DNA of 64,000 bases, taken from an uncultured Acidimicrobiales bacterium (lineage in GTDB: Bacteria > Actinomycetota > Acidimicrobiia > Acidimicrobiales > SZUA-35). The stretch is taken from NCBI GenBank assembly GCA_937922785.1, contig CALAJQ010000016.1, positions 62,001 through 126,000 of the forward strand, read 5' to 3'. The position numbers were made by a program, and so were the translations under genes. Positions 20,802 to 27,249 of this stretch are shown in pieces (position 1 is the first letter of the stretch; every line of letters begins with the position of its first letter). The notes beneath the pieces are model-generated. The model saw only the letters and a list, made by a program, of their open reading frames with translations, searched no databases and was not told the origin of the DNA.

Positions 20802-21566
20802 CTAGACGGCCAACAGCTGAAGGTAGGCCATGCCCAGGATCTCGCGATAGCCGTTGTAGTAGGCGCCGGTCTGCCGGGCCAGTTTGGCCGCAACCTCGGC
20901 TCGATCAGGGTGGTCGGCTGGGTTATCTGCCAGCCAACGTGCGTAGCCGGCCGTGAATCCGGACTCAAACTCGTCCCATTCGTCGAGCGATGCTTGGTGG
21001 GTGCGCATGACAACAAACCCACACTCACTGGCGATTTCTAAGAGACTGGGTAAGAACACGAACTCATCAAGCCGACCTGCCAGGGGAGCGATTGCTTCGG
21101 GAGTCGGTTGAGCAGTCCAGATGCCGTCCCCAAACACCAAGGGAAGGCCCGGTTGAAGCAGATCGCGTATGGCGGTCAAGGCGCATCGGTAGTCAAGAGG
21201 CTGGTTTTCCTCTACGGAGGCGCCCCAGATCTGGCTTGCGCCGATACAGAAGACTCCACCTGCTTGATCGGGCAAAGACTCAAGAGCGTTACCTACGACA
21301 AACTCCAGCCGGTCGCCGACTCCACGCTGTTCAGCAACAGTCCGACCATGACTAATTCCGTCCGATTCGAGGTCGTAGCCGATCGCTGTTAGATCGTGGC
21401 CCTGTTCCAAAGTTTCGATGAGAAGCTCGGCCCACCCGCAGCCGAAATCTAGAACACATCCGCTTGCGTTGGATGCCACGAACTTACTCAAAACGGCCGC
21501 ACGCTCCTGCGACAGCGGCGCCATGTACTTCAAGTCTTGGTACGGAGGGGCAAATTCAGGTGCCAT
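20802..21566 (-). CDS. Class I SAM-dependent methyltransferase
   Basis: 254 residues from ATG 21566, overlapping the selenoprotein stop by 11 bases. Motif I is CVLDFGCGWAELLIETL, followed by the acidic ligand in GYDLESDGI. ALESLPDQAGGVFCIGASQIWG forms motif IV. It resembles SAM methyltransferases that modify small molecules. Its overlap with the GrdB-like gene indicates a joint operon, perhaps with a common substrate. Confidence 0.83.
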   Translation of the reverse strand: MAPEFAPPYQDLKYMAPLSQERAAVLSKFVASNASGCVLDFGCGWAELLIETLEQGHDLTAIGYDLESDGISHGRTVAEQRGVGDRLEFVVGNALESLPDQAGGVFCIGASQIWGASVEENQPLDYRCALTAIRDLLQPGLPLVFGDGIWTAQPTPEAIAPLAGRLDEFVFLPSLLEIASECGFVVMRTHQASLDEWDEFESGFTAGYARWLADNPADHPDRAEVAAKLARQTGAYYNGYREILGMAYLQLLAV

Positions 21567-22464
21567 CGGTCTCGGCGTCAGCCGCATCTTGGCGAGCCTT
21601 GCGGATGGCATCGATGTTGTGTTTGACGATTGGGCTGGGCTCTGAAGGTTGCCAGTCCTTGTAGGCCTGCCTGCGATCGCCCGGCCACTCGATGTTCAAG
21701 TCGACTCGAGTCTCGGGCTCACTCGCGGATGTCAACACCTCTAGCGCAGCGAGCAAAACCTGGGTCTGCATTTCGGAATCACCGACCACGCCAAAGGAAT
21801 GTCCGAACGGGAACTCGACACCCAGCACCCGTGAGGCTCGATACTTGGTTGATAACTCGGGCATCATCGAAACGGTGACCGTTGGAATTCCTGCGGCTTC
21901 AATCTCACGTGCCAACACGGGCACGTTTTGGCAGCAGTCTGGTCAGGCCGGAGCCAGAATTAGAGCATCGATATCCGCCGCATGGCATCGGGCGGCAATC
22001 TCGGGCGCTGTAGTGGTGCGCCAAACGTCGGCACCTTCTGACTGAAAGCCCATCACCGAAAAATGCTCGGGCGAGGCAGAACCGATAATGCCCGTTGCGG
22101 CCATCTCGTTAAGACGTTCTATCGGTAGGGCAACGTTCATGTCGGTCAGCAAGTCGGTGGTATTTATATGCAGGTGAGTTGCATCAAGATCGGCTTGACT
22201 AACTGAATTCGGGATGACTCGCATTGTCGGGTCACCCCAAGTCGGTTCGTTGCGTTCGCGCTCGACGTCGAAAGGTGGCTGCTGGTCAGAAACGAAAATC
22301 CCGGCGCTTGTCAGCAAACCGATTCGGGCCTCAGATAACGGCTTGTCGAATGGCGCCCAAATCGGCTCGTGATCGAAGTGAGGCGCCGCTTCAAAGATTG
22401 ATCGGAAGGCTCTCGGTAAGAATGCGTAGCTGTCAACGGTCACGTCTGGTTGCATCTCATCCAC
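21556..22464 (-). CDS. GrdB-family (glycine/betaine/proline reductase B-like) selenoprotein with in-frame UGA as selenocysteine
   Basis: The gene appears as two pieces, 21943-22464 and 21556-21924, in the same frame and separated only by TGA at 21943-21945. Reading the UGA as selenocysteine gives 302 residues with Sec at about 174 in ALILAPA-U-PDCCQNVPVLA. The U-x-x-C redox motif sits exactly where GrdB-like proteins carry Sec or Cys, after a beta strand and before an AREIEAAGIPTV helix. The N-terminal half (RIGLLTSAGIFVSDQQPPFD, WGDPTMRVIP, DLNVALPIERL-like, IGSASPEHFSVMGFQ) matches this family too. A SECIS-like hairpin follows at the correct distance. Family members were named after Clostridial reductases, but these actinobacterial ones lie outside glycine reductase operons; the reaction is unknown. 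No selA/selB/selC/selD is in the window. Confidence 0.82.
21907..21926 (-). promoter_or_regulatory. SECIS-like hairpin downstream of the selenocysteine UGA
   Basis: On the coding strand ACGTGCC-CGTGTT-GGCACGT forms a perfect 7-pair stem with a 6-base loop. The loop begins 23 bases after the UGA and has G at its second position. This meets published bacterial SECIS rules: loop of 3-14 bases, 16-37 bases from UGA, a G among the first two loop bases. The hairpin lies inside coding sequence, as in bacteria it should. Confidence 0.7.
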
Positions 22465-24285: not shown

Positions 24286-25062
24286 ATGACTACTGCTCAC
24301 CTTGACACCAACAGGCACCCAATTGGCGAACCTGCATTCGTGGCTAGCTGCCGGGACCTGCTGGACACCGACGGTGCCCTAGTGCTCGAGGGATTTGCGC
24401 CAGCGGACACGATTGCCCAGATTGTCGCCGAGTCTGCACCGCTCGAATCTGATGCGTTCTATGCAGACAAGACCCACAACGTTTATCTGACCCCAAACGA
24501 TCCGAAGTTCTCTGCGGGCCATCCCTACAACCGCCAGATCACCAGTAGTAAGGGTTTGATCGCCGATGACGAGATTCCCGCCTCGTCACCGCTCCGCGAG
24601 ATTTACCAAGACGAAGACTTCTGTAGTTTCCTTTGTGGTGTTCTCGGCATCGATCAGATCTATCCGTATGCCGACAACCTTTCGTCCATCAATGTTCACT
24701 TCGCAGCAGAAGGCATGGAGTTGGGCTGGCACTTCGATAACTCTTCGTTTGCGGTAACGATGCTGCTGCAAGCTCCTGAAGCCGGCGCTCACTTTGAGCA
24801 TGTGCCCGCCGTGCGTAACTCTGCCGAGGGCGATATGGCCTATGACCGGGTCGCTGCGGTCCTGGATGGTCACACCAAAGTGCAGACTTTGGAGTTCGAA
24901 CCGGGTGACCTTGTTTTGTTTCGTGGTCGCGACGCGATGCATCGGGTCACTCCCACCGAAGGTGGCACCACCCGCCTACTAGTTGTGTTTGCATACAACG
25001 ATCAGCCCGGAGTGGCGCTGTCAGAATCGGCATTGGAAACTTTCTACGGCCGGACTTGCTAA
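24286..25062 (+). CDS. 2-oxoglutarate Fe(II) oxygenase (HalD/BesD-like hydroxylase)
   Basis: 258 residues. The facial triad is H-x-D in GMELGWHFDNSSFAVTMLL plus the distal His in GRDAMHRVTPT, with the 2-oxoglutarate Arg in TTRLLVVFAYNDQPG. The order and the phrase ending FYGRT are like the HalD/BesD family of amino-acid halogenases and hydroxylases; because the Asp is present rather than the Gly of the halogenases, hydroxylation is expected. The substrate may be a free amino acid, but this is inference. It stands alone between two minus-strand blocks. Confidence 0.8.
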   Translation: MTTAHLDTNRHPIGEPAFVASCRDLLDTDGALVLEGFAPADTIAQIVAESAPLESDAFYADKTHNVYLTPNDPKFSAGHPYNRQITSSKGLIADDEIPASSPLREIYQDEDFCSFLCGVLGIDQIYPYADNLSSINVHFAAEGMELGWHFDNSSFAVTMLLQAPEAGAHFEHVPAVRNSAEGDMAYDRVAAVLDGHTKVQTLEFEPGDLVLFRGRDAMHRVTPTEGGTTRLLVVFAYNDQPGVALSESALETFYGRTC

Positions 25063-25094: not shown

Positions 25095-27086
25095 TCACAA
25101 CAGCAGGGCGTCGGTGACCACCTCAACAATTGATGGCCCGCCATGCGCCAGCGCAGTCTCGATTGCACCGCGTAACTCAGAAAGCTCAGTAACTCTGATT
25201 CCCTGAGCTCCACAAAGTTGTGCGAACTCGGAGAAATTCGGATTGTGCAGACTGGTCTGCCAAACGTCGAATTGGCCAGCTCGCTGCTCCTTGCTGATCT
25301 TGCCGAGTTCGCTGTTGTTCATGAGCACATGGGTGATGTTCATCCCGTACTTGACCGCGGTGGTCACCTCCATTGCATACTGGCCAAAGCCGCCGTCGCC
25401 AGACACCGAAACGATTTGGCGGCTGTCGCCAGCAGCGGCCCATGCGCCCATTGCTGCAGGGAACGAGAAGCCAATCGAACCTAGGTATCCGCTCATAAGA
25501 ATGTCTTGGTTAGCAACTTCGAAGTAGCGGCCAAAGGAGTAAGTGTTGTTGCCAACGTCCACACAGATAACTGCATCGTCGGGCACAAGTTCGCCAAGTT
25601 CTTGGAAGATCGAAGCGGCGTTCACACCTTTGCCATGGTCATCGGTGCGCCGACTAGCCTTTTCTTCTCTCCAGATCTGCCAACGTTCAGCTACAACCGC
25701 TCGTTGGTCAACGCAGGCGTGCTTTCCACCGAGTCCGGCTGTCAGGAGACGGGCGGTTGTGCTTACGGCGCCTTGTAGTCCAATCTCAACTGGATGGTGG
25801 CGGCCGATTGCCATTGGGTCGTGATCGATTTGAACAATTGGCTTGTAGGGGGCAATGCCGGTGTGGTTTGAAAACGACGAGCCAAACACGATGACTGCAT
25901 CAGATTCGTTCATCAGCCAGCTAGCAACTGGAGTTCCGCTGCGGCCAAGAACGCCACAGCCGAGTGGGTGGTTGTCAGAAATGGCACCCTTGGCTTTGAA
26001 GGTTGTTATCACTGGAGCGCCTAGAAGCTCAGCCAACTCAACAACCGCATCCATGTCTGGGCGGGCGCCCTGACCCACCACGATTACTGGACGTTCGGAC
26101 TTTGCGATTAAGGCAATGGCTTCTGCCAACACAGCTGCCGGGGGAGAGATCTCACGGTCTCCAGTTCTACCGTCGGGTCCCGAAGCTTCTTGGTCTGAGG
26201 TCTGTTCCTGAACCTCATCTGGGAAAATCAGGTGCGCAACGTCGTTTTCAACCAACGCGGTCTTGCAAGCAAGCGTCATGATCTCGGCATGGTCTGCGCC
26301 TGCGAGAACCACTTCGCCAAAGCGGGCGACATCATTGAAGGCATCGGCAAGATCCATGTCTTGGAAAGCACCACGGCCTTTGGTCTTTGATGGCACCTGA
26401 CCCGATAGCGCTAGCACGGGTGCACGATCGACCTTGGCGTCATAAAGTCCGGTCAGCAGGTTCGTGGAGCCGGGGCCAGCGATGCCGAAACAGCCTGCGA
26501 GCCGGCCAGTCAGTTTGCCGTAAGCTGTTGCGGCGAATGAGGCGGCGCCTTCATGGCGAATACCGAAGTAGCGAAGTTCGCCGCGTTCTTCGGCTCTTCT
26601 CATTGCATCGGCAAAGCCGAGGTTGGAATGCCCGACCATGCCAAACACCGTGTTGACACCCCAATTGACCATCGTTTCGACCATGACGTCGGAAACCGTT
26701 CGGACATGCTCGGCCTCTGGGGGTAAAGCGACGTACAGACCGTCATCTCTCATCTCGCTGGCGTAAGCCTCGGGGGCATCATCGAATCCGCCCGGCGGTG
26801 TGCCATTGCATGGGCTGTAGTCATAGCCATGCCACGGGCAACGCAACCAACCCTTTTCGATGGAGCCTTCGCCCAATGGGCCGCCTTGGTGTGGGCAATG
26901 GTTGCTCATAGCCCCGTAGTTTCCTTCTACGTTGGTGATGCACAAGGTGCGATGGCCAATGGCGACGGCCGTGACGCGGCCCTCGGGTAGTTCGTCGACG
27001 TCTAGCACTTTGTGCCAGTCGTGAGCACTCTCAGGTACAGGCACAGGTTCGGTTGAGGGCGCTTCTTGAGAGCTCATCTGGATCAT
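25095..27086 (-). CDS. Rieske-type ferredoxin fused to a ThDP-dependent (pyruvate oxidase/acetolactate synthase-like) enzyme
   Basis: 663 residues from ATG 27086 (27077 also possible). The N-terminal domain (about 20-120) is a Rieske [2Fe-2S] ferredoxin: SNHCPHQGGPLGEG supplies C-x-H and LRCPWHGYDYSPC supplies C-x-x-H. The rest is a full ThDP enzyme: catalytic Glu in YFGIRHEGAASFAATAYGKL, central NAD/FAD-like domain, and C-terminal diphosphate motif SGDGGFGQYAMEVTTAV ... MNNSELGKI. ThDP enzymes decarboxylate 2-oxo acids such as pyruvate; a Rieske domain could accept electrons. I know of no standard enzyme with this fusion. Single gene, no in-frame break. Confidence 0.85.
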   Translation of the reverse strand: MIQMSSQEAPSTEPVPVPESAHDWHKVLDVDELPEGRVTAVAIGHRTLCITNVEGNYGAMSNHCPHQGGPLGEGSIEKGWLRCPWHGYDYSPCNGTPPGGFDDAPEAYASEMRDDGLYVALPPEAEHVRTVSDVMVETMVNWGVNTVFGMVGHSNLGFADAMRRAEERGELRYFGIRHEGAASFAATAYGKLTGRLAGCFGIAGPGSTNLLTGLYDAKVDRAPVLALSGQVPSKTKGRGAFQDMDLADAFNDVARFGEVVLAGADHAEIMTLACKTALVENDVAHLIFPDEVQEQTSDQEASGPDGRTGDREISPPAAVLAEAIALIAKSERPVIVVGQGARPDMDAVVELAELLGAPVITTFKAKGAISDNHPLGCGVLGRSGTPVASWLMNESDAVIVFGSSFSNHTGIAPYKPIVQIDHDPMAIGRHHPVEIGLQGAVSTTARLLTAGLGGKHACVDQRAVVAERWQIWREEKASRRTDDHGKGVNAASIFQELGELVPDDAVICVDVGNNTYSFGRYFEVANQDILMSGYLGSIGFSFPAAMGAWAAAGDSRQIVSVSGDGGFGQYAMEVTTAVKYGMNITHVLMNNSELGKISKEQRAGQFDVWQTSLHNPNFSEFAQLCGAQGIRVTELSELRGAIETALAHGGPSIVEVVTDALLL

Positions 27087-27249
27087 TTCGGGTAGGGGAG
27101 TTGGGTTACTTGTTGGTTTGAGTGACAGCCTTGACGACCGGCGGCTCGATCGCAAATGCGAACTGTTTCTGTGGCTCGAGTGTGCCTGCTTCAGCACTCT
27201 TAGTGGGTTTAAGTCGCACTCAGTTGTCAGTTGTGCAACTCTGTTCTAC

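Follow-up and report, generated by a model that had tools for sequence, protein, structure and literature searches.

The window gene, which lies on the minus strand of an uncultured Acidimicrobiales genome, is on comparative evidence a real bacterial selenoprotein gene, with an internal UGA codon predicted to be read as selenocysteine (Sec). We put a probability of about 0.8 on the explanation that best covers the observations as a whole: one 302-residue, UGA-recoded selenoprotein of the PrdB family, made with the aid of a hairpin bound by SelB and acting in partner-free selenol-thiol reduction. Within this explanation, sequence comparisons support the gene itself, the recoding of its UGA, the family, the constrained hairpin, and the partner not having been found. 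"The window" refers throughout to the whole stretch of 64,000 nucleotides that was analysed (G000:C16:62001-126000); it comes from a draft genome of 4.9 Mb in 45 contigs that is 95.7% complete. Coordinates of the features under discussion are collected in Table 1.

Table 1. Features of the selenoprotein gene and the gene overlapping it, in window coordinates
Feature	Coordinates	Strand	Description	Basis
PrdB-like selenoprotein gene ("window gene")	21556..22464	(-)	302 residues, one predicted Sec	TIGR04483 and PF07355 profile matches
In-frame UGA, predicted Sec174	21943..21945	(-)	Opens the U-P-D-C motif	Homologue comparison
SECIS-like hairpin	21907..21926	(-)	7 pairs, 6-base loop, loop start 23 bases past the UGA	
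Cys177 (second half of UxxC) and Cys178	21931..21936	(-)		Homologue alignments
Class I SAM methyltransferase gene	20802..21566	(-)		PF13649, 8.5e-08

The reading frame runs from a GTG at 22464 to a terminal TGA at 21558-21556, and its sole interruption is the TGA at 21945-21943 (codon 174). The earlier note had described one minus-strand frame split by this codon only, and sequence and translation agree with it exactly. In translation, the motif and its surroundings read ALILAPA-*-PDCCQNVPVLA; the second TGA, at the 3' end of the gene, was taken as the real stop. The choice of start codon among GTG 22464, ATG 22455, and GTG 22443 is unsure, and conservation with close relatives begins at about residue 8 of the protein. 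Cys177 is invariant in 32 aligned rows, and Cys178 in the 12 rows that carry the UPDCC motif.

Selenocysteine machinery and Sec/Cys exchange

SelA (384.6 bits) and SelB (275.2 bits) are encoded next to each other on contig C21 of the same genome, the gene for SelD (368.1 bits) shares the window's contig at a distance of about 80 kb, and a tRNA-Sec with the anticodon TCA reaches 66.7 bits, where the gathering score is 47. All four best matches exceed curated cut-offs, and the assembly thus holds each of the genes (selA, selB, selD, and selC) that the earlier note had proposed to look for. The SelD gene (G000:C16:164748-165671, outside the window; L019) itself has one in-frame TGA, in the motif GAG-U-GCK. 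When 26 chosen genomes were surveyed at E<=1e-9, tRNA-Sec was detected in 13 of 14 genomes with a Sec form of the family, compared with 2 of 9 that lack a family match; the one Sec-form carrier in which it was not found at this threshold is G047. Two of the three genomes that have only a Cys form also gave a match (G421 and G746, and not G173).

At the site of residue 174, TGA is present in 33 of 34 homologue rows (a set that includes the window gene as L026 and one locus twice, as L023 and L027), and the remaining row, L039 from G173, has Cys. The earlier note had asked whether homologues carry Sec or Cys here; a wider alignment of 70 rows, with one gene of the window's own genome entered twice (L083 and L113), has a stop codon at the site in 64 rows, Cys in six, and nothing else. 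Of the 397 genomes sampled from the order, 141 have a homologue at E<=1e-6, and homologues occur in 78 of 396 genomes of the phylum, the window's own genome being counted in both. Among the order-scan matches listed, every row except that of G173 has one TGA; the phylum scan also returned stop-free matches in G407 and G436. A scan of GTDB contigs recovered four loci, three of them in Acidimicrobiales/Ilumatobacter MAGs at 69-73% identity and one in Chloroflexi at 32%. The window's own genome has three PrdB-family genes with one TGA each, namely the window gene on C16, C29:76369-77292, and C12:303079-303897. Further afield, three genuine PrdB genes of anaerobes, all with a PrdA-type gene annotated or detected next to them, have Sec in the same column; two alphaproteobacterial homologues have Cys at the aligned site; and in the Peptoclostridium and Ligilactobacillus records, prdB is annotated as reading through the TGA.

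These comparisons bear on two other readings of the codon. If the TGA were a true stop, what we treat as one gene would be either a pseudogene or a pair of short genes; formally the frame is indeed broken, and GTG 21924 could open a second ORF of 122 aa. This is very unlikely, as the TGA occupies the same codon, with coding conserved on both sides, in all but one of the 34 rows, is replaced by Cys in six of 70, is followed by a region of constrained codon choice (below), and occurs in a genome with Sec machinery. The UGA could also be read as some other residue (Trp, for example, through reassignment or suppression), and readthrough alone would likewise keep the frame open, or the TGA could be a sequencing error. 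We find either scarcely credible: the 70 rows show only stop or Cys, the window gene itself ends at a TGA, SelD too has one in frame, tRNA-Sec is present, and the TGA recurs in separate assemblies. The claim of a UGA-encoded selenoprotein, with which the earlier note began, is thus supported by the Sec machinery, the exchange of Sec with Cys, the synonymous constraint after the codon, and a PF07355 match above its cut-off.

Two related loci, L133 (G504:C19:14654-15346) and L134 (G474:C4:547399-548091), have two in-frame TGAs three codons apart, in the motif U-P-I-U-H, which may represent a double-Sec, diselenide site; both genomes have tRNA-Sec. Among 20 stretches compared, some of them from double-TGA rows, these were the only two with both TGAs inside the motif; in others, the second TGA falls where the frame ends. 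UxxU motifs are reported for Prx-like and mercuric reductase-like selenoproteins in passages of two papers (PMC9312934; PMC2398784), and the literature passages searched hold no mention of UxxU in PrdB. In two other related genes (L131 and L132), the site has a TGA followed by G-T-G, possibly a Sec that lacks the second Cys.

Family placement

The protein matches PF07355 at 27.4 bits (cut-off 22), which places it in the superfamily that holds both GrdB and PrdB. The best NCBIfam model is that for PrdB, TIGR04483, at 1e-34 and 120 bits, below the cut-off of 300 for a PrdB equivalog. GrdB, GrdF, and GrdH (TIGR01917, TIGR01918, NF040794, and NF040795) share the superfamily with the window protein, whose PF07355 match stops just before the Sec, and differ from it in that their models give 39-49 bits against cut-offs of 65-800 (39 against 602.2 for TIGR01917, GrdB itself, of which the protein is by this model not a member) and are matched in the second half of the profiles only. 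The earlier assignment to the GrdB family is therefore right at the level of the superfamily, PF07355, and the nearest curated family is instead PrdB, at a score below its cut-off.

A quick tree built from 69 rows groups the 12 UPDCC rows in one clade (SH-aLRT 99, no bootstrap) and the three true PrdB rows in another (SH-aLRT 100); the deeper joins are unsure because some branches are long. Judged from this tree, the UPDCC clade is a distinct one within the known PrdB family. An AlphaFold model built from 32 rows, with Sec entered as Cys, has a mean pLDDT of 93.4 and a pTM of 0.91, and places residue 174 between a strand (167-171) and a helix (177-190). Searches for solved relatives gave none by sequence at E<=0.1 and no Foldseek match at E<=0.001. 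The best VIA-align match to the model, a LacI-type regulator (Z 8.9, rmsd 4.2 over 141 residues), is read as a common alpha/beta arrangement only, and the lack of a GrdB or PrdB structure among the matches listed carries no weight.

PrdB of Acetoanaerobium, Peptoclostridium, and Ligilactobacillus (TIGR04483) has Sec at the homologous position and Cys three residues on and, over 75% of the window protein, is about 28-31% identical to it. However, in these anaerobes the motif is U-G-T-C, the protein has 237-242 aa, and the gene lies beside PrdA-type genes, whereas the window protein has U-P-D-C-C and a C-terminal extension and comes from a genome without a PF09338 match. Homologues on plasmids of Roseomonas and Haematobacter, annotated as "glycine/sarcosine/betaine reductase selenoprotein B family protein" (tblastn 4e-14 and 9e-10), resemble it in that the searched plasmid records have no PF09338 match either, and differ in having Cys, not Sec. 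The marine "Proline reductase PrdB" proteins are likened to it by description, as UxxC selenoproteins assigned in the second of two papers to pfam07355: passages of the Sargasso Sea paper give 42 PrdB selenoprotein genes (PMC1088965), and those of the GOS paper give 235 Sec and 110 Cys sequences (PMC2398784). A 2016 survey, as excerpted, counts proline reductase Sec proteins in 110 organisms (PMC5029168). PrdB is thus a long-known selenoprotein family of proline-fermenting anaerobes and ocean metagenomes, and since its selenoproteins are so well known, the window gene adds one more member to a family already described. Our literature search found no paper that links "Acidimicrobi" with both selenoprotein and selenocysteine; in it, the terms "PrdB-like", "GrdB-like", and "selenoprotein B family" occurred only in papers on rumen Synergistota. 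The main text of the deep-Sep paper does not mention Prd or Grd.

The hairpin and its position

The hairpin that follows the UGA has the sequence ACGTGCC/CGTGTT/GGCACGT (21926-21907), and its description in the earlier note (seven pairs, a six-base loop with G as second base, a spacing of 23 bases) is exact as placed. The numeric limits used, which are reportedly those of bSECISearch, are a loop of 3-14 bases, a spacing of 16-37, a stem of at least 4, and a G among the first two loop bases. The window hairpin lies shortly past the UGA and has a G in a small apical loop, as a SECIS element should; a passage of the Sargasso Sea paper counts a guanosine in a small apical loop among the features that SECIS elements share (PMC1088965). 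Its energy is modestly unusual, with RNAfold z scores of -1.86 (51 nt) and -1.03 (81 nt), and was matched by 22 of 2000 codon shuffles in one run and 14 of 1000 in a second. Over 33 rows, the best hairpin has a mean of -7.7 kcal/mol, compared with -3.0 in codon shuffles.

Far stronger than hairpin energy alone is the comparison of homologues, with the TGA at one and the same site in 33 of 34 rows. Among columns with an invariant residue in eight clade members, a single codon is used in 6 of 12 that lie within 14 codons after the UGA and in 2 of 75 elsewhere (Fisher P 4.5e-5); with 11 members, three of them found later, the counts are 5 of 11 after the UGA and 0 of 59 elsewhere (P 3.8e-5). No such constraint was seen in 21 sister rows, where few columns are available (0 of 3 vs 0 of 24). 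RNAalifold recovers the same hairpin, with six pairs, from the eight clade sequences, and when the seven pairs are written in, 92.9% of cells in the window clade pair (without the truncated L032 and the duplicate L023). There is no covariation in these eight rows because the hairpin hardly varies within the clade; one inner pair is mismatched in L022, and the outermost pair is missing in three of the eight. The three later members have seven pairs in one case and six in two, and in L135 and L136 the minimum-energy fold of 48 nt differs, though six of the seven pairs can form.

The position of the hairpin differs between clades. In 9 of 10 window-clade rows, the loop of the best hairpin begins 23 bases past the UGA, the exception being L022 with its mismatch; most sister rows have theirs 5-6 bases nearer to the UGA. 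Among 23 non-clade rows, the loop is placed at 17-18 bases in 16, on a stem of 6-8 pairs and with 3 or 5 loop bases; in the other seven that stem has a mismatch, and a weaker 5-pair hairpin was scored at 21. In the 8-pair sister stem (20 rows, without the near-copy L055 and the distant L025 and L033), four pairs have changed on both sides, a number reached by 5 of 500 shuffles, and the covariation score is reached by none of 500. Sliding this stem by one column leaves covariation similar (0.170 vs 0.159) with 49% of cells pairing vs 84%, and RNAalifold on the same 20 rows gives a weak 6-pair consensus only. When structures are swapped between the clades, pairing falls to 33% and 53%. Both spacings occur in the window's own genome, with the loop at 17 bases in the C12 paralogue and at 23 in the window gene, so one SelB presumably reads both. 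By simple criteria, the C29 paralogue has a weak hairpin, equalled by 168 of 1000 shuffles, and SelD a middling one, equalled by 52 of 1000.

Genomic neighbourhood

The ATG of the methyltransferase gene lies inside the last codons of the window gene, and the same-strand overlap of 11 bases suggests that the two are perhaps translationally coupled here. From this arrangement comes the idea, already put forward in the earlier note, that selenoprotein and methyltransferase form one pathway, for instance by methylation of a shared substrate or product. We consider this unlikely. A search of 22 other family loci, two of which (L023 and L056) overlap and some of which, such as L061, end at a contig edge, gave no match to the methyltransferase, nor did a search of five more, and at E<=1e-15 a homologue occurs in 3 of 198 genomes of the order, the window's own included. 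The remaining two are G015, which lacks a family gene, and G139, in which two of three family matches are listed, both on contigs other than that of the methyltransferase homologue. With no association with family loci found elsewhere, the shared pathway was dropped as unsupported.

Ten neighbours of clade members or near relatives are a mixed set that includes regulators, a peptidase, an acyl-CoA dehydrogenase, DUF885, and others, and comparison of the family loci found no conserved partner or neighbour that would point to a substrate or donor. Among the 22 neighbourhoods, one gene cluster is common to five loci and another to four, and the window belongs to neither. Some individual neighbours may be recorded. 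A divergent HTH_67 regulator lies beside two clade members (L022 and L061), and a mycothiol maleylpyruvate isomerase-type gene follows another (L057). Near the selenoprotein gene in the window, 24286-25062 is Fe/2-oxoglutarate halogenase-like (HalD PF23169 3e-17, with the BesD model far below cut-off), and 25095-27197 encodes a Rieske ferredoxin domain fused to a pyruvate oxidase-like thiamine diphosphate enzyme.

Pyruvoyl partner and proposed reaction

PF09338, the profile for the pyruvoyl subunit, found no match in any of 16 genomes of the order (the window's own and 15 relatives, all of them drafts save the single-contig G006 and G134) nor in the two alphaproteobacterial plasmid records; as a positive control, it matched in three anaerobe records, to PrdA and to pyruvoyl subunits of B-complexes. 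This result weighs against the reading in which the window protein would serve a genuine D-proline reductase as its PrdB subunit, together with a PrdA-like pyruvoyl subunit. Such a reading would fit the best curated match (TIGR04483, 1e-34) and the alignment of the window-gene Sec with that of true PrdB. Yet the score is 120 bits where 300 are required, PF09338 gave no match in 16 of 16 genomes although the control worked, the true PrdB rows stand in their own clade (SH-aLRT 100), and the ten neighbouring genes scanned include no prd gene; we regard it as distinctly improbable. With the PF09338 partner not found, a strict D-proline reductase reaction is unlikely, and because the pyruvoyl subunit of D-proline reductase and glycine reductase B-complexes was not found, partner-free working is the most likely alternative.

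In the partner-free selenol-thiol mechanism that we favour, SelB would bind the hairpin just downstream of the UGA and deliver tRNA-Sec, which would decode codon 174. The product would be a PrdB-family oxidoreductase of the alpha/beta type that works without a pyruvoyl subunit; Sec174 would sit in a loop that precedes a helix and have Cys177 as its partner in the UxxC motif. The Sec174 selenolate would attack an electrophilic small substrate, and Cys177 would resolve the resulting intermediate, forming a selenenyl-sulfide that a thiol system of the cell, for instance thioredoxin or mycothiol, would reduce again. We infer the redox cycle and the existence of an electron donor; which substrate and which donor these are is a guess. 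There is about an even chance, in our estimation, that the UPDCC clade represents a selenoenzyme in its own right that needs no partner, namely an orphan actinobacterial PrdB-fold selenol reductase with its own substrate and a shifted SECIS, the same SelB reading both kinds. A passage in the literature proposes GrdB-like proteins, with a GrdE homologue, for fluoroacetate reduction (PMC10838667), a proposal that hints that selenol chemistry in the superfamily may extend beyond amino acids.

The shifted hairpin is a ready-made test of the latitude that SelB allows in the placement of SECIS elements. The window's own genome has three such Sec genes, and homologues are found in 141 of the 397 genomes sampled from its order. 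A tractable member would make it testable what a PrdB-fold selenoenzyme reduces without PrdA.
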